The notes under the pieces are model-generated. The model ran no database searches and was not told the origin of the DNA. It saw only the letters and a list, made by a program, of their open reading frames with translations. Made by a program: the position numbers and the translations under genes. A stretch of DNA of 32,466 nt from Acidobacteriota bacterium (GTDB taxonomy: Bacteria; Acidobacteriota; Terriglobia; Bryobacterales; Bryobacteraceae): NCBI GenBank assembly GCA_026394075.1, contig JAPKYX010000150.1, forward strand, positions 13,409 to 45,874. Direction: 5' to 3'. Of this stretch, positions 3,314 to 22,293 are shown one piece after another. Numbering within the stretch: the stretch's first letter is position 1; every line of letters starts with the position of its first letter.

Positions 3314-5325
3314 GAGTAGAGCCAGCCGGGATAACGGTCCCGCACCGGGCCGGCCTTTTTGCCGACGCAGTACACACCCTCGCCGCGCAGATCTTGCGGG
3401 AAGCCGTACTGCTCCAGTAGATGCGTCACCCAGGCCAGTTCCGGCCGGGGCTGCTCTTTGAAGGGGCCAGAATCGATCGTGGTGATGTCGAACCCGGCGT
3501 AGTGGAACAGCAAGTAGACCTCTTTGGCCGTGTACTCGCGATGATGGCGCGCTTCGCCCTTCTCCGTCGCTGCCGGGTGCAGATAAGCCGGAAACAGTGC
3601 CGGGTGATAACCGTTCAGCATGGCGGCAATGGAGCGCAGCGAAGCGATGTTGGGCGTGGTCAATATCAGATGTCCGCCCGGCTTCAGCACGCGGTTGATC
3701 TCCGCCATGGTGTGCATTGGGTCACTCGGCAAATGCTCAATCAGCTCACAGCACAGCACGGTGGAAAAGTGGCCGTCCGGGTAAGGGAAGACATGCTTCT
3801 CCGCATCAAAGTGATCGATCTCACACGTGAAGCTGCGGCCATCGTCGGATTCCACCGTCTTCACGTCCACGTGGCCCGGCGTCCCGTAATAACAACCCCG
3901 CACATGCCCGTAGCCCAGCTGATACTTCAGCGCCGCCGTGATCATCATGTAGGCGCCCATCTCCAGCACATGGTCGTCCGGACCACCGGGCGGCGTCAGC
4001 TCCAGCGTGCGCTGAAAGCGGGTGAGATGCGTGTCCACGTAGGCGGCCACCTCCGGCTGCGGATTGGTCCAAGTGGTGATGGCGCTCACCGGCACCGTGA
4101 TCGGCTCAGTTGGCTCGGGCGCCATGGTGGCGCAGGCTTCAGCCTGCAGCGGGACTTCAGTCCCGCCTCGGTCTCCCGTAACCGTAGGTGCCGCTCCCGC
4201 CACAAACTCATCCCGCGCATCGCCCTGCAGGAACCCGAGATATCTCCCCGCCACCACATCCCACGGACATTCCCGTTCCACCCACGCCCGAGCCCGCTCG
4301 CCCATGCCCCGCGCCAGCGTCGGCTGCGAGCACAGCAGGTTCAGATACTCAAAGATCAGATCTTCTTCGCCCGCGCCCACCGGCACTTTCAGGCAGATGT
4401 CGTCCGGGTATTCGCTGAACGCACCCACATCGCTCACCATCACCGCCCGGCCTAGTCCCAATGACCGGTGCAACGTGCCCGAGGTTTCGCCCACCGTCGG
4501 GTACCGCAGGTTCAGCACGATGTCGCACGCCGCCAGATAGCCGGTAAAGTCGTCAATCGGTGCGTAGCCGATGTGGCGCACGTGCGCTTCCAGGCCCAGC
4601 CGCACCACCAGATCATCCAGGCGCAGCTCCGGGTGCGGCTCCCCCACCAGGATGAACTTGGCCTCGGGGATCAACTGCACCAGCCGCCGGAACGCGCGCA
4701 GCGATTCGGCGATCCGCTTATACGGCTTCAAGTGGCCAAAGGTGCCGATCAGCGGCGTCTTCACGTCCACGCCCAGCTTGTGGCGATAACCCAGCCGGTC
4801 AATCTCCGGCAGCCAGACGCCGTGTGGGATCACCGCCGTGCGCCCCGTGAAGCCTTGGGCCGCCAGCTCACGCGCGACAAATCGGCTGTGCGCAATCGCG
4901 CCCGTGGAGGCCGCCAGCACGCGCCGCAGCATGGGCACTCCTTCGTAGTCCGGCCCCACTTCCAGCTTCCGCACACGCTCCCCAAAACGCCGGGCGCGCT
5001 CTCCGCCATCAAAGGCCAGCTCATTCAGGTAGCCATCCCAGTTACCCGCGCGGATCGTGCGGTCGGCGATCAAGTGGTGCAGATTCGCCTCATGCATCAC
5101 CACGGTGCCGGGATGCTTCAGCGCGTAGTCGTAGACGAAGCTATGATCCGGATTGTTGCCCAACTGGTAAACGATGGCGTCATACTGCGACGGATCGAAC
5201 GCACTGGGTGCCTCCCGGAAGACGTCCACTTGGGCTTGCTTGGCCAGCGGACCCAGCAGCGCCGCCGAGTAATCAGCGATACCGCTCTTGGACGGCGGCA
5301 GCGGAGAGAAAAACGCGAGACGCAT
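3310..5325 (-). CDS. GT4 glycosyltransferase fused to SAM-dependent methyltransferase
   Basis: This 671-residue two-domain enzyme probably builds and methyl-caps a glycan. Residues 1-370 form a GT-B, GT4-like glycosyltransferase, with MRLAFFSPLPPSKSGIADYS at the start, the nucleotide-sugar region GTFGHLKPYKR near 194-204, and YPTVGETSG near 275-283. A linker (about 375-425) follows. Then comes a class I methyltransferase, with VLEMGAYMM (about 453-461, a variant SAM-binding loop), LCCELIEHLP (about 524-533) and INRVLKPGGHLILTTPN (about 543-559). The linker contains GTEVPLQAEACA, which is the translation of two palindromic repeats. I chose ATG 5325 over TTG 5343 because family members start MRLAFFSPLPP and because it lies 10 bp past the preceding stop. 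The domain calls are firm; the sugar and methyl acceptors are unknown. Confidence 0.87.
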   Translation of the reverse strand: MRLAFFSPLPPSKSGIADYSAALLGPLAKQAQVDVFREAPSAFDPSQYDAIVYQLGNNPDHSFVYDYALKHPGTVVMHEANLHHLIADRTIRAGNWDGYLNELAFDGGERARRFGERVRKLEVGPDYEGVPMLRRVLAASTGAIAHSRFVARELAAQGFTGRTAVIPHGVWLPEIDRLGYRHKLGVDVKTPLIGTFGHLKPYKRIAESLRAFRRLVQLIPEAKFILVGEPHPELRLDDLVVRLGLEAHVRHIGYAPIDDFTGYLAACDIVLNLRYPTVGETSGTLHRSLGLGRAVMVSDVGAFSEYPDDICLKVPVGAGEEDLIFEYLNLLCSQPTLARGMGERARAWVERECPWDVVAGRYLGFLQGDARDEFVAGAAPTVTGDRGGTEVPLQAEACATMAPEPTEPITVPVSAITTWTNPQPEVAAYVDTHLTRFQRTLELTPPGGPDDHVLEMGAYMMITAALKYQLGYGHVRGCYYGTPGHVDVKTVESDDGRSFTCEIDHFDAEKHVFPYPDGHFSTVLCCELIEHLPSDPMHTMAEINRVLKPGGHLILTTPNIASLRSIAAMLNGYHPALFPAYLHPAATEKGEARHHREYTAKEVYLLFHYAGFDITTIDSGPFKEQPRPELAWVTHLLEQYGFPQDLRGEGVYCVGKKAGPVRDRYPGWLYS
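4132..4166. repeat. pair of palindromic REP-like hairpins inside a coding linker
   Basis: Two adjacent perfect inverted repeats are present. GCAGGC-TTCA-GCCTGC occupies 4132-4147 and GCGGGAC-TTCA-GTCCCGC occupies 4149-4166, so both have TTCA loops in the same orientation. On the coding (minus) strand they read as GTEVPLQAEACA. I recall paired GACTGAAGTC/GGCTGAAGCC hairpins of this form as dispersed elements in acidobacterial and related genomes; that is memory, not a search. The element lies exactly in the interdomain linker of the glycosyltransferase-methyltransferase fusion and keeps the frame. Confidence 0.8.
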
Positions 5326-13309: not shown

Positions 13310-14848
13310 ATGAAGTTGGGCATTGATTTCGGCACCACCCGCATCGTCGTGGCTGCCGCGGACCGCGGCAACTACCCGGTGCTCTCGTTTGACGACGCCG
13401 AAGGCCAGCCGCGCGAATGGATTCCCGCGCTCGCCGCCGTTCGCGGCCCCGAGATGCGCTTTGGCTGGGCGGCGGCGGCCGTGGCGGCTGACCCGTCCTG
13501 GACACTCCTGCGCAGCTTGAAGCGCCTCCTGGAGTCCGCCGGCCCGGCCACCCGCGTGGCGGTAGGCAGCACTGAGTATCTGCTGCTCGATCTGCTCACC
13601 GGCTTGGCCATGGCTATCCGCGGCGGACTGCGCCCGGATGTCCATCAGGTGTTCTTGGGCGTGCCCGCCAACTCGAACTCCAACCAGCGCTTCCTGACCG
13701 GCGAAGCCTTCCGCCGCGCCGGGTTTGCGGTGCTGGGCCTGCTGAATGAGCCCTCCGCGGCCGGACTGGAATACATGCACGCCTCGCGCCGTGCCGACGG
13801 GGCTCCCGCTGCTTCGCCCGAGTGTGAATCGCTGCTGATCTACGACCTGGGCGGCGGCACGTTCGACGCCTCCCGCGTCGTGCTCCGCAGTGGGGAGCAG
13901 GAGGTGGTGGCCACCGAAAGCATCTCGACGTTGGGCGGCGATGATTTTGATGAAGTGATCGCCGAAATGGCGCTCCCCGATGGCCAGTTGGACCGCTTAG
14001 GCCCCGGCGCGCACTTCCGGCTGCTGGAACAGTGCCGGGAGTTGAAGGAGGCGCTCACTCCCAACAGCCGCCGCCTGCTGGTCGAGACCGACCACGGCCC
14101 CGTCACCATTACGGTGGCGGACTACTATGACCGCTGCCGCCCGTTGATCGACGAGACACTGCACGCCGTCGACGACCTGCTGCTGGATGCGAATGGCGCG
14201 CCTCCCGACGTGCTCTACGTCACCGGCGGGGCTAGCGAACTGCCGCTGGTCTCGCGCATGTTGCGGGAGCGGTTCGGACGCCGGGTGAAACGCTCGGCCT
14301 ATACGCGCGCGGCCACGGCCATCGGCCTCGCGATCCAAGCCGATGGCGCGGGCGGCTTCACGCTCCGCGAACGCTTCTCCCGCTACTTCGGCGTCTGGCG
14401 TGAGGCGGACTGCGGCACCCGGATCATCTTCGATCCCATCTTCGCCAAAGGCACCATCCTGCCGCGCCCGGGCGAACCCGCGTTAGTGCGCCAGCGCACT
14501 TACTCGCCCGCGCATAACATTGGACACTTCCGCTATCTGGAGGCCACGGCCTTGGGCCCCCACGGCGAGCCCGCGGGCAATCTCACGCTGTGGGACGAAA
14601 TTCTGTTCCCCTTTGACCCGGCCTTAAGCGGGGTTGACCAGCTTTCGCCCGCCGCCGTGTGTCATAGTAGCGTGGCGCAGCAGCAGGAGATTGTGGAAGC
14701 CTGGTCCTGCGATGAAAATGGAGTGGTGGAAGTCTCCATCGAGAACCGCACCGCCGGCTATTCCCGCCGGTACCGATTGGGACGATGGAACCATGAAGCC
14801 GCACCGGCCAAGCCCGTGCGGTCAACCAGGAGAAAAGTGAAAGTATGA
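13310..14848 (+). CDS. Hsp70-family protein without C-terminal lid
   Basis: This 512-residue protein has a complete Hsp70/actin-type ATPase domain: GIDFGTT at 4-10 (phosphate 1), LNEPSAAGL at 145-153 (connect 1), DLGGGTFD at 179-186 (phosphate 2) and VTGGASE at 304-310 (adenosine). After about residue 350 a short beta-rich part follows (FDPIFAKGTILPRPGE) that resembles a substrate-binding beta domain. The helical lid and the EEVD-like tail of DnaK are absent. There is a roughly 13-residue insertion after connect 1 (RADGAPAASPECE). It is therefore a specialised Hsp70 relative, not housekeeping DnaK. No DnaJ or GrpE gene is nearby. Its TGA overlaps the ATG of the SDR gene. Confidence 0.88.
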   Translation: MKLGIDFGTTRIVVAAADRGNYPVLSFDDAEGQPREWIPALAAVRGPEMRFGWAAAAVAADPSWTLLRSLKRLLESAGPATRVAVGSTEYLLLDLLTGLAMAIRGGLRPDVHQVFLGVPANSNSNQRFLTGEAFRRAGFAVLGLLNEPSAAGLEYMHASRRADGAPAASPECESLLIYDLGGGTFDASRVVLRSGEQEVVATESISTLGGDDFDEVIAEMALPDGQLDRLGPGAHFRLLEQCRELKEALTPNSRRLLVETDHGPVTITVADYYDRCRPLIDETLHAVDDLLLDANGAPPDVLYVTGGASELPLVSRMLRERFGRRVKRSAYTRAATAIGLAIQADGAGGFTLRERFSRYFGVWREADCGTRIIFDPIFAKGTILPRPGEPALVRQRTYSPAHNIGHFRYLEATALGPHGEPAGNLTLWDEILFPFDPALSGVDQLSPAAVCHSSVAQQQEIVEAWSCDENGVVEVSIENRTAGYSRRYRLGRWNHEAAPAKPVRSTRRKVKV

Positions 14849-15630
14849 GCGAGTTTCAAGGACGGACAGCAAGCGGCCTTCAAGGCCGGACAGCATTAGT
14901 GACTGGCGCCTCGCGCGGCATCGGGCAAGCCACGGCGGTGGCACTCGCCAAGGCGGGCGTGGCGCACGTCATCGTGCACTACGGCGGCCACCTGGCCGGT
15001 GCGGAAGAGACCGCGGCCCAAGTGCGCGCCGCTGGCGCCACGGCCCAGATCATCCAAGGCGAGCTGGGCTCGACCGCAGGCGTCACCGCCTTCTGTGACG
15101 CGTTGAAGCAGCTGAACGCGCCCATCGACATCTTGATCAACAACGCCGGATCGCTGGTGAAGCGCGCGCGGATTCTCGAAACCACACCGGAGTTGTTCGA
15201 TGAAGTCTACACGCTGAACGTCAAGAGCGCCTGGTTCATCGCCCAAGCCGTCGTGCCCGGCATGATCGAGCGCAAGTCCGGCTGGATCATCAACCTCTCC
15301 TCCATCGCCGCCCGCAATGGCGGAGGTCTCGGCGCGGCCCTCTACGCCTCCGCCAAAGCCGCCGTCGCCTGCTACACCAAAGGCATGGCCAAGGAACTGG
15401 CCCCCCAAGGCATCCAAGTAAACGCCGTCTCCCCCGGCACCGTCGACAACCACTTCCACGAAGTGTTTTCGACGCAAGCCATGCTGGACACCATGAAGGC
15501 CTCCACGCCTGCGGGCACGTTGGGCACCAACGAAGAGATCGCCGACACCATCGTCTTCCTCTGCTCCCACGCCGGCCGCTTCATCCACGGCCAGACCATT
15601 GAGATCAATGGCGGCATGTTTATGGTGTAA
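14845..15630 (+). CDS. SDR-family oxidoreductase (FabG-like)
   Basis: This 261-residue short-chain dehydrogenase/reductase uses NAD(P)H on a carbonyl/alcohol substrate. It has TGASRGIG at 20-27 (cofactor loop), NNAG at 99-102, catalytic S152/S153, and YASAK with Y167 and K171. The C-terminus HGQTIEINGGMFMV is typical of FabG-like reductases. The N-terminus carries an eight-residue duplication (FQGRTASG then LQGRTALV) from a 24-bp repeat. An AGGAG sits 12 nt before the ATG, inside the end of the Hsp70 gene, and the genes overlap by 4 bp. The substrate is not predictable; 3-oxoacyl, sugar or uronate reductases all fit. Confidence 0.9.
   Translation: MSEFQGRTASGLQGRTALVTGASRGIGQATAVALAKAGVAHVIVHYGGHLAGAEETAAQVRAAGATAQIIQGELGSTAGVTAFCDALKQLNAPIDILINNAGSLVKRARILETTPELFDEVYTLNVKSAWFIAQAVVPGMIERKSGWIINLSSIAARNGGGLGAALYASAKAAVACYTKGMAKELAPQGIQVNAVSPGTVDNHFHEVFSTQAMLDTMKASTPAGTLGTNEEIADTIVFLCSHAGRFIHGQTIEINGGMFMV
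14855..14895 (+). repeat. 24-bp-period direct repeat at the SDR N-terminus
   Basis: TTCAAGGACGGACAGCA at 14855-14871 recurs as TTCAAGGCCGGACAGCA at 14879-14895, identical at 16 of 17 bases with a 24-bp period. It encodes QGRTA twice and retains the frame. Confidence 0.9.
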
Positions 15631-15661
15631 GTGCTTTCAGCCGCACAAGTGATATCTCCCG

Positions 15662-15684
15662 CCGCTCCCTTGCGGTCACGGCTC
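15662..15684 (-). repeat. dispersed intergenic repeat, copy 3 (inverted)
   Basis: On the minus strand this reads GAGCCGTGACCGCAAGGGAG plus CGG, matching copies at 9196 and 13136. It lies in the 143-bp space between the convergent SDR and DUF167 genes, where no gene or clear terminator was seen. Confidence 0.65.
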
Positions 15685-15773
15685 TGTATGCAGTCAGCGC
15701 GGACCGCCGCTTCCGAGCCGCCATGCGCCAGCATGCGGTCTGCTGAAGCTTGCGGTGGAAGATCACTAGCCGG

Positions 15774-16004
15774 TCACGGCAGCATAATCCTGACCGTCTT
15801 GCGCGTCGACGTCAAACCGGCAATCACCGAGACGTCGCGCGCGGGCACCTGATAGTGGGCTGCCAACACGGAGCACAATTCCTCGTTTGCCCTGTCCGGC
15901 ACCGCCGCCACTTTCACTTTCAACGTACCGTCGTCCATCGTGCCCGCCACCTCTGACCGGCTGCTACGCGGCACTACTTTGACGTTCAGCGTCAAAGTCT
16001 TCAC
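15774..16004 (-). CDS. DUF167 (YggU-family) protein
   Basis: This 76-residue small alpha/beta protein of the DUF167/YggU family (PF02594) has no settled biochemical function. It shows the family pattern: LNVKVVPRSSRSEV at the start, LKVKVAAVPDRANEELCSVLA in the middle, and VSVIAGLTSTRKTVRI at the end, where family members usually have G.tSR.K.v.i. The start is GTG at 16002-16004, overlapping the TGA of the upstream receiver-fusion gene by 4 bp, so it is probably translationally coupled as the last gene of the tldD operon. The length is slightly short of the usual 80-100. Confidence 0.88.
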   Translation of the reverse strand: MKTLTLNVKVVPRSSRSEVAGTMDDGTLKVKVAAVPDRANEELCSVLAAHYQVPARDVSVIAGLTSTRKTVRIMLP

Positions 16005-17542
16005 TGCTTGCGCGGTGCGGGTGGCGCGGGGATCACAGTGGGCGGCAGCTTGAACGGCCGCCCCGGCAGGTAGTCCGGTGTCAAAAAGAAGGCTGGGGAG
16101 ACCTGCTCGACCTTGCAGGCAGCACCCGGGTCCTTGACGCCGTCTTTCTCATTGGGCAAACAGTCGTAGCCAAACTCCGCGATCTGCTTCGGGCTGGTGC
16201 CGGCGGGCAGGGCAATCGTCGAGCGAACCCAACCGGAGCGCTCAATCGCTAGGCGACGGTCATCCCGGTGCGACATGCGCCAGGCCGTCTCTGTGGTCAA
16301 GCGAACCTTGAAGCCGAGGCGCGCCTTGGTGCTGGTGATGTTGGCTTCGAGATACAGATAGTTGCGCGGGTCGCCGATCTGATCGAGGCGTCCTTCGCGC
16401 GTCAGTTCCTTGGCGGCGACGGCGTAGGTCCAGGGCGCGCGGTCCATCACGATCTCGCGGGAGTGCGTGCTCAATTCCACTTCCATGGGCACCAGTTGGA
16501 ACCGCATTGCGCTCTTGCTCTTTCCCGTCGTGGTGGGGGCCACCATGTTGTTCTTCGTCACCGGTACCAGCAGCGGATGATGCCCTTCCAGCGGCCCATC
16601 GTAGGGGATGTCCTTATGGTCCTTGGCTTGGATGATCGCCTTGCCATCGGTGCCGACCCGGTAGATGTATTCGATGTCGGTGGTGCGGCCCCAGACGGCC
16701 ATCAGGCCGCGCGTGGAGGTGCCGCCATCTTCGTTTGAGAAGACGATGGTGTACTGCAGGATGCCGCCGGGCAGTCGCTCCGCGTAGACCAGCAGCGGGA
16801 TGTCGGAGAACTGGCCCAGCGTATCTTCCCGGGCATAGAGCACGGGTGCGTTGGCCAGGATGTTGCCCGTGTCTTCGCTGAACTTCGCGCCGCGCACGTC
16901 AAGCGTCGAATCCAGGGCAGAGAACACCTCATCGCGCTCAACGGTGAGCCGATGCTTGCCCGCCGGCAGCTGTCCCAGAAAGACGCTGACCGGGCCCTTG
17001 CGTTCGCCCAGCACCCAAACATGCTGCGGTTCGCTGCCGTCCACCGTGAGCTTCGCCACCGCCGCCTGCCGCCGGGCGAGGCCCCAGTCAGACGTGCCGG
17101 AGCGCAGGTCAAGCTCGGCCACCGTTTCGCCGCGGCCGGTTGATTCAAAGGTGAAGTCGCGACCCCAGGCGGGCAGGATCAGCACGAGGCAGAGGACAAG
17201 TTTGGCGATGACGTCCATGAGATGTTTGGCCGTAGAGGGCTTCGTGATCGTAGCAGCTACGAGGGCCTTCTCCGGGCGGCCATGCAGCGCCGCCGTCCAG
17301 CCGCTCAAGATGGCGATCTTGGTGGCGGGGCAGGCAGCCGCCACTTCACGCACCAGGGCCAAGCCATCCTCGATGCCGGGCAGGCTGAGATCCATCACCG
17401 CCACATCCGGCGCAGGGGTCAGCGCCAAACGGGCATCCTCGACGGAAGCCGCGGGCGTCACCTGATGCCCGGCCCGCTCCAGGATCATACGGCGCAGATA
17501 GAGCTGGTCAACGTTATCTTCCACCAGCAGGATGTGTGCCAT
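16001..17542 (-). CDS. response-regulator receiver domain fused to a secreted-type protein
   Basis: One uninterrupted frame encodes 513 residues. Residues 1-105 form a CheY-like receiver: ILLVEDN with E8/D9, phospho-acceptor D51 in VAVMDLSLPG, S80 in AILSGW, and K101 in TKPS. At M109 the text becomes MDVIAKLVLCLVLILPAWGRDF, which has the charge, hydrophobic core and small-residue end of a signal peptide. About 385 residues of an unrecognised, strand-rich protein follow, ending proline-rich. Either this is a membrane-anchored fusion with a cytoplasmic receiver and periplasmic sensor-like body, or M109 (ATG 17218) is a separate start of an exported protein nested in the receiver frame. No kinase gene is nearby. 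It sits 15 bp after the lipoprotein gene and overlaps the DUF167 gene by 4 bp. Confidence 0.75.
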   Translation of the reverse strand: MAHILLVEDNVDQLYLRRMILERAGHQVTPAASVEDARLALTPAPDVAVMDLSLPGIEDGLALVREVAAACPATKIAILSGWTAALHGRPEKALVAATITKPSTAKHLMDVIAKLVLCLVLILPAWGRDFTFESTGRGETVAELDLRSGTSDWGLARRQAAVAKLTVDGSEPQHVWVLGERKGPVSVFLGQLPAGKHRLTVERDEVFSALDSTLDVRGAKFSEDTGNILANAPVLYAREDTLGQFSDIPLLVYAERLPGGILQYTIVFSNEDGGTSTRGLMAVWGRTTDIEYIYRVGTDGKAIIQAKDHKDIPYDGPLEGHHPLLVPVTKNNMVAPTTTGKSKSAMRFQLVPMEVELSTHSREIVMDRAPWTYAVAAKELTREGRLDQIGDPRNYLYLEANITSTKARLGFKVRLTTETAWRMSHRDDRRLAIERSGWVRSTIALPAGTSPKQIAEFGYDCLPNEKDGVKDPGAACKVEQVSPAFFLTPDYLPGRPFKLPPTVIPAPPAPRKQ

Positions 17543-17557
17543 CGAAAGCTTGCCGCC

Positions 17558-17977
17558 TCAGCCGAACACGATGGCGGCAATCACCAGGCCCGGCGCGGCC
17601 TGGTTCCAACTGGCGGGCAGTGTGTCAAACGGTAGCCGGAACGGCTTGGTGTCGCCCGGCTTCAGGCCGCCGGTCTTTTCGCGCACAATGGCCACGCGCT
17701 CGCGCGCCACCACTTGGCCCGAAGGGTCATAGAAGACGCACATCACTTCCACGGTCTTCAGATGGCGGTCGCCCTTGTTGGTGATCTGGCCCAGGATCTC
17801 CACCACCTGCTGACCGGAGAACGATTCGGCGGCCTTCATTTCGACGCCCGCCAAGCCAAGGTTCTTCACATAAGCCTTCGCCTCCGGCGTCAGCGCCGTC
17901 GGCTCCTTGGGGCCGGTGGCGCAGGCCGACAGCAGCGCGAGCAAGGGCAGGGCAGTGAGGATGGCTTTAGTTGCCAC
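17558..17977 (-). CDS. small lipoprotein
   Basis: This 139-residue protein has a lipoprotein signal peptide; the lipobox is L16-S17-A18-C19 in LLALLSAC. The mature part is a single beta-sandwich-like domain with VVEILGQITNKGDRHLKTVEVMCVFYD, then VVARERVAIV and LKPGDTKPFRLPFDTLP. This resembles FxLYD-type domains of bacterial lipoproteins, a suggestion not a firm assignment. The start is GTG at 17977, overlapping the tldE stop by 11 bp. Being in the tldD-tldE operon, it may act in the envelope on the same pathway, which is inference. Confidence 0.75.
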   Translation of the reverse strand: MATKAILTALPLLALLSACATGPKEPTALTPEAKAYVKNLGLAGVEMKAAESFSGQQVVEILGQITNKGDRHLKTVEVMCVFYDPSGQVVARERVAIVREKTGGLKPGDTKPFRLPFDTLPASWNQAAPGLVIAAIVFG

Positions 17978-19307
17978 TGACGGTCATCTCCCGGATCATC
18001 AAAGTGGGGCTGGCGATGGAGCCGCGGAACTCCAGATCCACGCCCGGTTCCTCGATATCAAGCAGCATCTGTTTCAGATTACCCGCAATGGTGATCTCGC
18101 TCACCGGGTAGGCCAGTTCGCCATTCTCAATCCACATTCCGGCCGCGCCCCGCGAGTAGTCACCATTGACGACGTTGACACCCTGGCCCATCAGTTCGGT
18201 GACATAGAGGCCGCTTTTGATGCCGCCGATCATCTGCTCCGGAGTCTTGGACCCCGCTTCCAAAAAGAAGTTCCCGTGATCGACATAGGCATTTCCGGCC
18301 AAGCCTCGGGCGGCGTTACCGGTAGTAGTCGTGCCCAGCTTTTTGGCCGTATAGGTGTTGTGCAAGTAGGTCTTCAGGATGCCCCGCTCCACCACCACTT
18401 TGCGGCGGGCGCGGACGCCTTCATCATCAAACGGTGAGCTGCCGAACAGTCCCGGAATGGTGGGGTCATCGATGACGGTGATGTACTCGCTCGCCACCCG
18501 CGCGCCCAGTTGGCCGTTCAGAAATGAAGCCTGCCGGTAGATCGAATCGCCGCTGACGGCCTCAAACAAGTTGGCCAGCAGGGTTCGCGCGATGCGGGGT
18601 TCAAACACGATGGGCACCTTTTGCGTCGACACCTTGCGCGCGCCCAGACGGCGCACCGCCCGCTGTGCCGCCAAGCGCCCCACCAAGTCCGCCGCTTCCA
18701 GCCGGTCCGGACGGCGGGCGATGGAGAACCAATAGTCGCGCTCCATCTTCTCGCCCTCTTTGGCCACCGGGACGGCCGAGATCGAACAGGATGACGACCG
18801 GGCCAGCCCGGAAAAGCCGCGCGAGTTCGCAAAGGCGCGGGAGCTCAAGTAGGTATCAAAAGACCCGCCTTCGGAGTTGGTGATGCGCGGATCAAACTGC
18901 AGTGCCGCCGCCTCCGCCGCCTTGGCCTGGGCGATCTTCCATTCGGCTTCCAGTTGCTCCACGGACTCGGAGTAGGTTTCCAGATCCACGTCAATCGACC
19001 CCAGCTCCGCCTCATCCGGCAGACCCGCAAACGGGTCATCAGTGGTGACACTGGCGTTCTCGATCGCCGCGCGGACCATGCGCTCCACGCCTTCTTTTGT
19101 GAGATCGGAGGTCGTGGCGGAGCCAGTCCGCTGGCCGACCAGCACGCGGATGCCTGCACCGCGCGAGCCGGCCTCCTTCAGCTGCTCCACTTCTCCCAGC
19201 CGGACGCTGGCCGAGAACTCATTGCCCTCGGCGACCGTACATTCGGCCTCCGTCGCGCCCAGTTTCAAGGCGCGTGCGACGACATCGGTGGCTAGTTGCT
19301 GGATCAC
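17967..19307 (-). CDS. pmbA: TldE/PmbA-family subunit of the TldD/TldE protease
   Basis: This 446-residue protein is the non-catalytic half of the TldD/TldE heterodimer, a cytosolic peptidase that trims peptides through an extended active-site groove. It matches the family along its length: SASVRLGEVEQLKEAGSRGAGIRVLVG near 33-59, a central GLFGSSPFDDEG near 286-297, and the end region GDYSRGAAGMWIENGELAYPVSEITIAGNL. The HEXXXH zinc motif of TldD is absent, as expected for TldE. The GTG start at 19307 overlaps the tldD stop by 4 bp. The pair acts in maturation of modified peptides in other bacteria; no such peptide gene was recognised here. Confidence 0.92.
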   Translation of the reverse strand: MIQQLATDVVARALKLGATEAECTVAEGNEFSASVRLGEVEQLKEAGSRGAGIRVLVGQRTGSATTSDLTKEGVERMVRAAIENASVTTDDPFAGLPDEAELGSIDVDLETYSESVEQLEAEWKIAQAKAAEAAALQFDPRITNSEGGSFDTYLSSRAFANSRGFSGLARSSSCSISAVPVAKEGEKMERDYWFSIARRPDRLEAADLVGRLAAQRAVRRLGARKVSTQKVPIVFEPRIARTLLANLFEAVSGDSIYRQASFLNGQLGARVASEYITVIDDPTIPGLFGSSPFDDEGVRARRKVVVERGILKTYLHNTYTAKKLGTTTTGNAARGLAGNAYVDHGNFFLEAGSKTPEQMIGGIKSGLYVTELMGQGVNVVNGDYSRGAAGMWIENGELAYPVSEITIAGNLKQMLLDIEEPGVDLEFRGSIASPTLMIREMTVSGN

Positions 19308-20734
19308 GCGACACCGCCGACGGTCATCTGGTCAATGCGCACGGTGGGGATTCCGACGCCCACCGGGACCGACTGCCCTTCCTTGCCGCAGACCCCGATG
19401 CCTTCATCCAGCTTCAGGTCGTTGCCCACCATCGAGACATACTTCATCGCCTCCGGCCCATTGCCGATCAACGAAGCGCCGCGCACCGGGCGGCCCAGGC
19501 GGCCGTTCTCGATCTCATAGCACTCGCTCGCCGAGAAGACGAAGTTGCCGGACGTGATGTCGACCGACCCTCCGGAGAAGTTGACGCAGTAGAGGCCCTT
19601 GGGCACGGAGCGGATGATCTCTTCCGGCGTGCTGTCACCGGCCAGCATGAAGGTGTTGGTCATGCGCGGCATCGGGACATGCTGATAGCTCTCGCGGCGT
19701 CCACTGCCCGTGGAGGTGCCCCCCATCAGGCGGCTGGACAGATTGTCCTGCAGGTAGCCGCGCAGGATGCCTTTTTCGATCAGCACGTTCTGCTGCGTCG
19801 GGTTGCCTTCGTCGTCCATATTGATCGACCCGCGGCGGTGCGCCATCGTGCCGTCGTCGATGACGGTGCAAAGTTCGCTGGCCACCTTTTGGCCGACGCG
19901 GTTCGAGAAGGCCGAAACGCCTTTGCGATTGAAGTCGGCTTCGAGACCATGGCCCACCGCTTCATGCAGCAATACGCCCGGCCAGCCGGGCCCGAGCACG
20001 ACGGTCATCTCACCGGCCGGGGCGTCGATGGCGTCCAGTTGCATGATCGCCTGGCGCGCCGCTTCTCGCGCATACCGTTCCGGGCTCTTGTCGGACTCAA
20101 AGACTTCCAGACCCATGCGTCCGCCCCCGCCCGCATAGCCTTCCTGCGGCGAGCCTTCGCCTTGCCGGGCCAGCACGCTGACGTTCACCCGTGCCATCGG
20201 CTGCCGGTCATAGCTCAACTTGCCTTCGCTGGTGGCGATCAGGATCTCCCGCACGTTGTCGGCATAGCTTGCCCGCACTTGAAAGACGCGCGAGTCATAG
20301 GCGCGGGCGGCGCGGTCAGCCCGCTTGATCAGCTCGACGCGCTCGTTCAACGTGGTGTCGTTGGGGGCCGTCAGGACGGGGTAGAGGTCGCGCTTGGGGC
20401 CTTCGTTCAAGCCGGTCTTCTCCACCTTGGACGGGCCATTGGCAATGCAGGCCGCTGTCTTGCAGGCGTGGCGGATCTTCTCCGGACTCAGGTCGTCGGT
20501 GTACGCATAGCCGGTCTTTTCGCCCGATAGCACGCGAACGCCGACACCCAGCGAGACGCCTTGGCTGGCGCTTTTGACGATGCCTTCGTCGATGCCCAGT
20601 GAACTGGTGGCGACGTACTCAAAGTACAGGTCGGCGTAGTCACCGCCGTGGCTTAGGGCGACGCCCAGGTAACTTTCGAGATCAGCCGTCGAAAGGCCAA
20701 ATTTACGGGGGAAGAATGAATCGGTGAAGCTCAA
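19304..20734 (-). CDS. tldD: TldD metalloprotease subunit
   Basis: This 476-residue protein is the catalytic zinc subunit of TldD/TldE. The metal motif H257-E-A-V-G-H262 is intact, followed by GLEADFNRKG. Other conserved blocks include SLGVGVRVLSGEKTGYAYTDDL near 61-82, IDDGTMAHRRGSINMDDEG after the motif, and GSGRRESYQHVPMPRMTNTFM. The start is TTG at 20734; no ATG or GTG lies between it and the in-frame stop upstream. It is the first gene of the five-gene minus-strand run and is divergent from the M20 peptidase, with 50 bp between the two starts, so both promoters must be packed there. Confidence 0.93.
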   Translation of the reverse strand: MSFTDSFFPRKFGLSTADLESYLGVALSHGGDYADLYFEYVATSSLGIDEGIVKSASQGVSLGVGVRVLSGEKTGYAYTDDLSPEKIRHACKTAACIANGPSKVEKTGLNEGPKRDLYPVLTAPNDTTLNERVELIKRADRAARAYDSRVFQVRASYADNVREILIATSEGKLSYDRQPMARVNVSVLARQGEGSPQEGYAGGGGRMGLEVFESDKSPERYAREAARQAIMQLDAIDAPAGEMTVVLGPGWPGVLLHEAVGHGLEADFNRKGVSAFSNRVGQKVASELCTVIDDGTMAHRRGSINMDDEGNPTQQNVLIEKGILRGYLQDNLSSRLMGGTSTGSGRRESYQHVPMPRMTNTFMLAGDSTPEEIIRSVPKGLYCVNFSGGSVDITSGNFVFSASECYEIENGRLGRPVRGASLIGNGPEAMKYVSMVGNDLKLDEGIGVCGKEGQSVPVGVGIPTVRIDQMTVGGVA

Positions 20735-20784
20735 ATTTCAGGCTATCACGGGGTGAGGAAAGTGGTTTTCGGTATCCTGGCTTC

Positions 20785-22293
20785 ATGTTTTCCATCTGGA
20801 TCCTGGCGGCACTGGCTGCCCTCCCGCTTCTCGCCCAGCGCCCCCCGGCGGCCGATGCCGCGCGCAAGTACCGCGAGGCGAATGAGCAGAAGATTATCCG
20901 CGAATACGTGGACCTGCTCAGTATCCCCAACGTCGCCGCTGACAAGGCCAACATCCGGCGCAATGCCGAGCACATCGCCAAGATGTATGCCGCGCGCGGC
21001 GTCGAGACGGAGCTGATCGAGGTGGAAGGCGCCAACCCGGCCGTCTATGGCGAGCTGCTGGTGCCCGGGGCGACGCGGACGCTGCTTTTCTATGCTCACT
21101 ACGACGGCCAACCAGTGGACCCATCGAAGTGGAAGGACTCCGGCCCGTTCCAGCCGGTATTGCGAACCGCGCCGGTGGAGATGAACGGCAAGCTGTTGCC
21201 GCTGGACCAGGCGAAGTACGACCGCGAGTGGCGCTTGTTTGCGCGCTCCGCCACCGACGACAAGATCCCGATCATCTCACTGGCCACCGCGCTCTCCGCC
21301 CTGTCGGCGGCCGGTATCAAGCCACAGGCGAACTTGAAGTTCTTCTTTGAAGGTGAAGAAGAGGCCGGGTCGCCCAATCTGCGGCGGCTGATGATGAAGG
21401 CCAAGGACAAGCTGAAGGGCGAGGTCTGGCTGATCTGTGACGGCCCGATCCACCAAAGCCGGGCGCAGAAGCTGAGCTTCGGTGCGCGCGGCGTTGCGGG
21501 GCTGGACTTGACCGTCTACGGAGCCAAACGCGGCCTCCATTCCGGCCACTACGGCAACTGGGCCCCAAACCCGGCCATGAATCTGGCGCGCCTGCTGGCG
21601 TCGATGACCGATGGCGAAGGCAAGGTGCTGGTGAAGGGCTTCTATGACGACGTGACGCCGCTGGGCAAGCTGGAACGCGACGCGATCATGAGCAACCCCA
21701 AGCAGGACGCGGAACTGAAGCAGGAGCTGTTGCTGGGCACCACGCAGCAGTTCAACGGCGATCTGCGGGAGAGCTACTACAAGCCGTCACTGAATATCCG
21801 GGGCCTGGAAAGCGCGCAAGTGGGCACCAAGGCGGCCAATGTGGTGCCGCCCGAAGCGAAGGCCTCGATCGACCTGCGCCTAGTGAAAGGCAACGACGGC
21901 CGCCGCCAAGCCGATAAAGTGATCGCCCACATGCGGGAGCAAGGCTACTTCATCATTGAAGGCCGTGACCCTACCGATCAAGAGCGGCTCAGCCATGCCA
22001 AGGTGGCCCGCGTGGACGTCAACCTGAGCTACAACGCTTTCCGCACGCCGCTTGATCTGCCCGTCGCGCAGAAGATCATCGCGCTCGCTAAGCGGGTGAA
22101 GGAGCCGGTGGTGCTGGAGCCCTCATCGGGCGGCAGCCTGCCGCTGGTGGTGTTTGAAGAAGTCACCGGCGTGCCGCTGGTGGCCGTCCCGATCGCCAAC
22201 CACGACGACAACCAGCACACGCACAACGAGAACGCCCGCATTGGCAACTTGTGGGACGGGATCGAACTGCTGGCCGCGCTGCTGGTGATGTAG
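20785..22293 (+). CDS. exported M20-family metallopeptidase
   Basis: This 502-residue di-zinc peptidase of the M20/M25/M40 family resembles dipeptidases. The signal peptide is IWILAALAALPLLAQ (cleavage near residue 18), so it acts outside the cytoplasm. Metal and catalytic residues are visible: H105 and D107 in YAHYDGQP, bridging aspartate D158 in RSATDDK, and the EGEEEAGSP glutamates at 189-197. A late NHDDNQHTHNEN segment carries the final histidines. The dimerisation domain (LSFGARGVAGLDLTVYGAKRGLHSGHYG) is intact. In relatives the text around the bridging aspartate is usually GRGATDDKG, so the S and I changes here are mild variants. It is convergent with the cyclophilin gene, 7 bp apart. 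Confidence 0.92.
   Translation: MFSIWILAALAALPLLAQRPPAADAARKYREANEQKIIREYVDLLSIPNVAADKANIRRNAEHIAKMYAARGVETELIEVEGANPAVYGELLVPGATRTLLFYAHYDGQPVDPSKWKDSGPFQPVLRTAPVEMNGKLLPLDQAKYDREWRLFARSATDDKIPIISLATALSALSAAGIKPQANLKFFFEGEEEAGSPNLRRLMMKAKDKLKGEVWLICDGPIHQSRAQKLSFGARGVAGLDLTVYGAKRGLHSGHYGNWAPNPAMNLARLLASMTDGEGKVLVKGFYDDVTPLGKLERDAIMSNPKQDAELKQELLLGTTQQFNGDLRESYYKPSLNIRGLESAQVGTKAANVVPPEAKASIDLRLVKGNDGRRQADKVIAHMREQGYFIIEGRDPTDQERLSHAKVARVDVNLSYNAFRTPLDLPVAQKIIALAKRVKEPVVLEPSSGGSLPLVVFEEVTGVPLVAVPIANHDDNQHTHNENARIGNLWDGIELLAALLVM

Follow-up and report, generated by a model that had tools for sequence, protein, structure and literature searches.

An in-frame fusion of a response-regulator receiver, an internal signal-type core and a secreted-type body in Bryobacteraceae

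A gene joining a receiver domain to a hydrophobic core and a 386-residue secreted-type body, in that order and without a linker between receiver and core, was found in an Acidobacteriota bacterium of the family Bryobacteraceae (GCA_026394075.1, contig JAPKYX010000150.1, forward-strand positions 13,409 to 45,874). This stretch of 32,466 nucleotides is referred to here as the window, and all coordinates are counted from its first letter. Judged from sequence, the 513-residue product is a new response-regulator architecture built from known kinds of part; it is common in Bryobacteraceae, and its function is a prediction only. The reading we favor, and consider reasonably probable, is that one gene yields one chain, with the receiver inside the cell, an N-in internal Sec signal and an exported body that is probably cut free by signal peptidase I. 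An initial annotation of this DNA had described a receiver running in frame into a signal-type segment and body, and one open frame of 513 codons bears this out:

16001-17542, minus strand: fusion gene for a protein of 513 aa (receiver, internal signal sequence and secreted-type body), one ATG-started open frame
17201-17542, minus strand: receiver domain, residues 1-114 (PF00072 match at residues 4-112)
17216-17218, minus strand: internal ATG (M109), earlier proposed as a second start; Met in 4 of 66 fusions, not a general start
17168-17200, minus strand: hydrophobic core of the signal, residues 115-125, immediately preceded by K114 (KD11 3.15)
17162-17167, minus strand: residues 126-127 (WG), with a possible signal peptidase I site after G127 predicted from sequence
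16865-17161, minus strand: body domain 1, residues 128-226, a carbohydrate-binding-module-like beta sandwich (AlphaFold2 model and VIA-align)
16475-16873, minus strand: body domain 2, approximately residues 224-356, an NLP-like fold with NEDGGT and WGR stretches (VIA-align, no sequence match)
16004-16474, minus strand: body domain 3, residues 357-513, a beta sandwich whose kinship is uncertain (PLAT/C2-like matches are weak, Z about 4)

The fusion was first traced in two congeners (95 and 92% identical) and five other genera (42-50%), each time as one frame with no stop. Across the family, the body occurs in 79 of 200 genomes spanning 28 of 76 genera, and six-frame reading of these 79 gave 62 fused forms, 16 with the body alone and one with two genes. 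Among the first 75 body-bearing genomes, 59 are fused, in 19 genera, and the body-only ones fall in 10 genera; genus g29 contains both forms. With the best 80 of 240 relatives from a scan of the GTDB contig collection included, the distinct body sequences amount to 95 loci, comprising 66 fused, 27 with the body alone and two split. One of the 27 (L049) is a contig-end fragment without upstream sequence; it probably belongs to the same gene as L039 of that genome, as its opposite end. Shortened bodies also exist: the fusions of genus g68 (L136-L139 and L356-L358) retain receiver and core but not body domain 1, the core running directly into domain 2, and a body shortened in this way occurs in L355 of g67 with no receiver.

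The receiver matches PF00072 over residues 4-112 (E 2.5e-10; 40.9 bits, cut-off 30.2), and the residues of phosphorylation are all present in the window protein: the acidic pair E8 and D9, the phospho-acceptor D51, S80 and K101. Conservation across the 66 distinct fused proteins is nearly absolute, with E/D at position 8, D9, D51 and K101 in 66/66 and S/T at position 80 in 65/66, in line with the complete CheY-like receiver bearing D51 and K101 that the initial annotation had recognized. The loop after D51 presumably holds one residue more than that of CheY. Within its own genome, the window fusion stands alone. Of 79 PF00072 matches at E ≤ 0.001 (75 over the cut-off), it is the only one with an 11-residue core of Kyte-Doolittle ≥ 2.3 (3.15) in the range from 12 residues before to 60 after the end of the match; the next-highest core (2.14) lies inside that receiver's own last helix. 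A complete receiver with its phosphorylation residues is shared with single-domain response regulators of the CheY/DivK/CpdR type, but in the fusion the last helix leads on into an export signal, behind which lies an exported-type body of 386 residues.

The run at the join is K114-LVLCLVLILPA-WG-R128, so that the core (L115-A125) follows straight after K114 and M109 lies inside the receiver's last helix. A core with KD13 above 1.6 sits directly behind the receiver in 64 of the 66 fusions, the exceptions being L194, where it is weak (1.50), and L200, which has none. With K101 as residue 1, residue 14 is the last polar one ahead of the core in 57/66 distinct fusions; position 14 holds K/R in 53/66 and position 15 Leu in 58/66. 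The receiver helix therefore ends, and the core begins, at one place without a linker. Mean charge over the 15 residues on each side of the core is +2.5 before and -0.5 after, the former exceeding the latter in 61/66, a bias that favors N-in insertion. The DNA of L200 contains a long poly-C run at the core site that gives a proline run, and its sister L182 is normal; the run is perhaps an assembly error or perhaps a real loss of export.

That two adjacent genes were joined by an assembly or sequencing error has a practically negligible chance of being right. Most records from the GTDB contig scan are metagenome-assembled genomes and the poly-C run in L200 is suspicious, yet 66 distinct fused sequences come from many separate assemblies, share the fixed register and show purifying selection, measured within the genus as a dN/dS of 0.11-0.16 for the receiver and 0.09 for the body. 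For the 22-codon junction, where changes are too sparse to settle on one figure, it ranges from 0 to 0.18. We consider assembly error ruled out by the recurrence of the fusion across relatives. Two separate genes, which the initial annotation had named as the mark of an error, do occur in 2 of the 95 loci, but both lie in other genomes and each is sister to a fused one, so they do not suggest an error at this locus.

The initial annotation also proposed that one frame might encode two products, the receiver fusion and a secreted protein begun at the ATG at 17218 (M109). We regard this as very improbable. M109 with the core that follows does resemble a signal peptide in the window's genus, and some ATG, GTG or TTG codon lies between K101 and the core in 52 of 66 fusions. 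ATG itself is found there in 13/66, however, a Shine-Dalgarno-like stretch precedes such a codon in 17/66, and Met occupies the M109 column in 4/66 distinct fusions (three of the window's genus plus L091). Because all three start codons are missing from this stretch in 14/66, internal initiation is not the general mode, a rejection that covers the general mode and not the window's genus alone. A signal peptide starting at M109 is not a conserved unit.

Whether the core acts as a signal peptide or a lasting anchor was weighed from its length and surroundings. As in substrates of Sec and signal peptidase I, a basic residue (K114) precedes a hydrophobic core (the usual range being about 10-15 residues); the N-terminal position of such signals is not shared, the core lying at residues 115-125. 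An A-x-A motif follows the core in 35/66 fusions versus 27.5 expected from shuffled sequence, an enrichment that may suggest cleavage but is too weak to be taken as proof of it. The alternative, an uncleaved N-in, C-out single-span protein whose receiver would report to or be controlled by the periplasmic body, seems to us doubtful. The best 19-residue hydrophobicity exceeds 1.6 in 89% of the 66 fusions, 75% of receiver-less N-termini and 95% of FxLYD anchors, so the groups overlap by this measure, which is cruder than run length; in the fusions the best 19-residue segment takes in the hydrophobic face of alpha5, the receiver's last helix. The fixed alpha5-to-core register would suit signaling via one helix, and the weakness of the A-x-A enrichment also speaks for a retained span. 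On the other hand, the median length of the stretch that has no charged residue and no N, Q, H or P is 10 at the fused junction (quartiles 9-12; n = 66), compared with 13 in receiver-less N-termini (n = 24) and 19 in the FxLYD anchor (n = 39), where an uncharged span of about 18 or more residues served as the criterion for a single-span anchor; the body is, moreover, found without a receiver in many relatives. Run length thus makes one true membrane span appear less likely than a signal peptide. Of the inside-out fusion suggested by the initial annotation, the cytoplasmic receiver, the membrane-inserting segment and the exported body find support, while the one membrane span is the weaker part.

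An AlphaFold2 model of the body, built on 75 natural sequences, is strand-rich and confidently predicted (pLDDT 94.3, pTM 0.91), in agreement with the strand-rich body of about 385 residues anticipated earlier. Domain 1 (residues 128-226) aligns by VIA-align to CBM6/35/36-type domains, and to non-CBM entries also, with Z 7-9.8 over some 80-90 residues; its single Pfam match, found in 1 of 75 bodies, is a weak one (E 0.058) to the N-terminal domain of carbohydrate esterase 2. Domain 2 (residues 224-356), with its invariant NEDGGT and WGR stretches, was compared using a model without domain 1 (pLDDT 92.1) and aligned to four entries of the NLP (necrosis- and ethylene-inducing-like) fold with Z 8.2-8.9 and rmsd 2.5-3.2 over 107-112 residues, the next, unrelated entry scoring 5.2; VIA-align itself cautions that Z near 8 is common. 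No sequence match accompanies the likeness to NLPs: PF05630, which we take to be the NLP family, is absent from the 12 Pfam families matched by the 75 bodies at E up to 10, a search whose filters drop most matches above 0.1. A PDB sequence search of the body gave nothing better than E 1.6, searching Pfam, NCBIfam, PADLOC and PHROGs with the body alone turned up no family, and Foldseek gave no match at E ≤ 0.001 for the whole body or for domains 2 and 3 together, its influenza hemagglutinin and OB-fold rows having low coverage or probability. Because Z near 8 is common and the Foldseek and sequence searches returned nothing firm, the CBM and NLP likenesses are taken as fold resemblance, not membership. 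Domain 3 (residues 357-513) gave weak PLAT/C2-like matches (Z about 4), and the want of a better one is no sign of a new fold. These resemblances would fit a secreted body whose role is probably to bind glycans or lipids beyond the cytoplasm; no enzyme or toxin activity is claimed or inferable for it.

The fusion gene lies among the following genes on the same strand:

19304-20734, minus strand: TldD (PF19289/PF19290/PF01523; NF008006 over cut-off)
17967-19307, minus strand: TldE/PmbA (PF19289/PF19290/PF01523)
17558-17977, minus strand: small FxLYD-domain envelope protein gene, directly upstream of the fusion gene (NF038353)
15774-16004, minus strand: DUF167/YggU gene, its start overlapping the stop of the fusion gene (PF02594, E 7.1e-19)

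The FxLYD gene (NF038353, E 1e-8; 34.9 bits, cut-off 23) has relatives in 188 of 200 family genomes and is the steady companion of the fusion: in 65 of 66 fused loci, the receiver start, placed by profile, either overlaps the FxLYD stop by at most 1 base or follows it by up to 27 bases. The sole fused gene without it, L082 (G146), is preceded by a short-chain dehydrogenase gene, the same arrangement as in the receiver-less genus g74. The initial annotation had placed the fusion in a TldD/TldE operon with no kinase; both genes are upstream, and no kinase was seen among the neighboring genes read at the window locus, which cover part of the window's frames. The operon is less constant than this suggests, given that TldE lies upstream in 53/66 fused loci and that, of the 13 remaining, 12 show the FxLYD gene without any TldE in the 4-8 kb covered. 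The TldD/TldE link is therefore not general. In the window's genus the FxLYD protein has a lipoprotein-like start (L-S-A-C), and in the other genera examined a long hydrophobic anchor (median run 19; 39 proteins), so its mode of membrane attachment seems to have switched between genera. Elsewhere in the window, 13310-14848 on the plus strand encodes a 512-residue Hsp70-like protein with a partial PF00012 match (residues 96-345, corresponding to profile positions 118-373 of 599). An Rfam scan of 14800-21200 gave nothing at gathering scores.

Each half of the fusion is also observed on its own. The distribution of its sequences marks the body as a predicted secreted family in its own right. Receiver-less homologues, for which the initial annotation had proposed a search, make up 27 of the 95 distinct loci, 11 of them with an FxLYD gene upstream, and all 18 genomes with the body outside Bryobacteraceae. 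These 18 were found among 396 phylum and 200 class genomes, none has a receiver beside the body (for L354, within 600 bases upstream), and several may be the same organisms as loci from the GTDB scan. Most receiver-less bodies have a hydrophobic N-terminus. The family extends to three Streptomycetaceae plasmid records, which align over 93-94% of the body at 33-34% identity. Two were examined, in Streptomyces (L339, 5830-7245) and Embleya (L340, about 4001-5203); both are without a receiver, and the Streptomyces body begins with a clear signal peptide. The receiver, for its part, occurs alone behind the same FxLYD gene. In a selected sample of 43 body-lacking loci, mostly one per genus among the matches listed, a stand-alone receiver of the CheY/DivK/CpdR kind follows that gene in 14, none in 28, and in one the sequence is too short. 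These receivers start 2-33 bases past the FxLYD gene (G021 is cut by the contig end) and, in the 13 examined, end about 13-31 residues from the conserved KP without a core, the KP match of L336 being displaced.

In a maximum-likelihood tree of 85 bodies, with 10 of the 95 distinct loci left out as partial, the outgroups lack a receiver, and the starred branches require the fused state to change at least 5 times and the body-only state at least 3 times. A single clade of all receiver-bearing rows was rejected (p-AU 0.0026). Well-supported switches are the body-only L037 beside fused L144 and the split loci L158 and L196 beside fused L148 and L194, respectively, and a fourth, moderately supported one places L040 and L151 inside a mostly fused group; the bodies of the two split loci carry signal-like N-termini themselves. 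Because the register is the same throughout, the sequences suggest one joining event in Bryobacteraceae followed by several losses or splits; repeated fusion may be an alternative origin. The repeated separation of receiver and body in this tree could also be taken to mean that the receiver is a functionless passenger tolerated by the body's signal peptide. We think this unlikely, given that D9, D51 and K101 are kept in every fusion, the receiver evolves under the constraint given above, and the register is retained in 57/66.

In the arrangement we favor, of one chain with an internal export signal, the receiver would be made first, fold and remain in the cytoplasm, and alpha5 would supply the basic K114 ahead of the Sec signal core. 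The core would then insert N-in and the three-domain beta-sandwich body would cross the membrane, after which signal peptidase I would probably cut behind the core and free the body. With such a cut, one translation would yield equal amounts of two products, a released body and a receiver associated with the membrane. The receiver may then act like its stand-alone relatives behind the FxLYD gene, at or near the membrane and in fixed proportion to the body. Exported proteins do not usually carry a folded domain of more than 100 residues ahead of their signal, and this counts against the export reading. Because alpha5 enters the core at a fixed register and the phosphorylation residues are intact, it can further be proposed that phosphorylation of D51 gates the offer of the signal to the Sec machinery or to signal peptidase, an idea we advance as speculation with a slim chance of being correct. 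Alpha5 is part of the face by which many receivers dimerize. Were such a gate to exist, a two-component system would act on one protein post-translationally, controlling whether it is exported or released, with no DNA binding involved.

The open-licence literature searched, including PMC4558063 and PMC5847659, yielded no description of membrane-bound, periplasmic or signal-peptide-bearing receivers like the fusion. Nor did it yield a description of a TldD/TldE-FxLYD-fusion operon or of comparable internal or long signal peptides. The initial annotation had asked whether the full 513-residue architecture is common and described; it is common within Bryobacteraceae, but no description was found in this literature.

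A close parallel is FbcH, the cytochrome b/c1 precursor of Bradyrhizobium, which is translated as one polypeptide, traverses the membrane by way of an internal signal and is cleaved into two proteins, as is proposed here for the fusion. Both halves of FbcH serve one complex and its first half is an integral membrane protein, whereas the first half of the fusion is a soluble signaling domain. Response regulators usually act via DNA, enzymes or cytoplasmic partner proteins; in the fusion the "output" is a protein of exported type, and a receiver occupies the place of a signal peptide n-region in at least 19 genera. The last helix of a folded domain doubling as the start of a signal would represent a seamless route to such fusions, and fused, split and single-part versions exist in nature for comparison. 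In Bryobacteraceae, the gene may encode a natural two-for-one polyprotein that the export machinery divides, or else a receiver with control over export.
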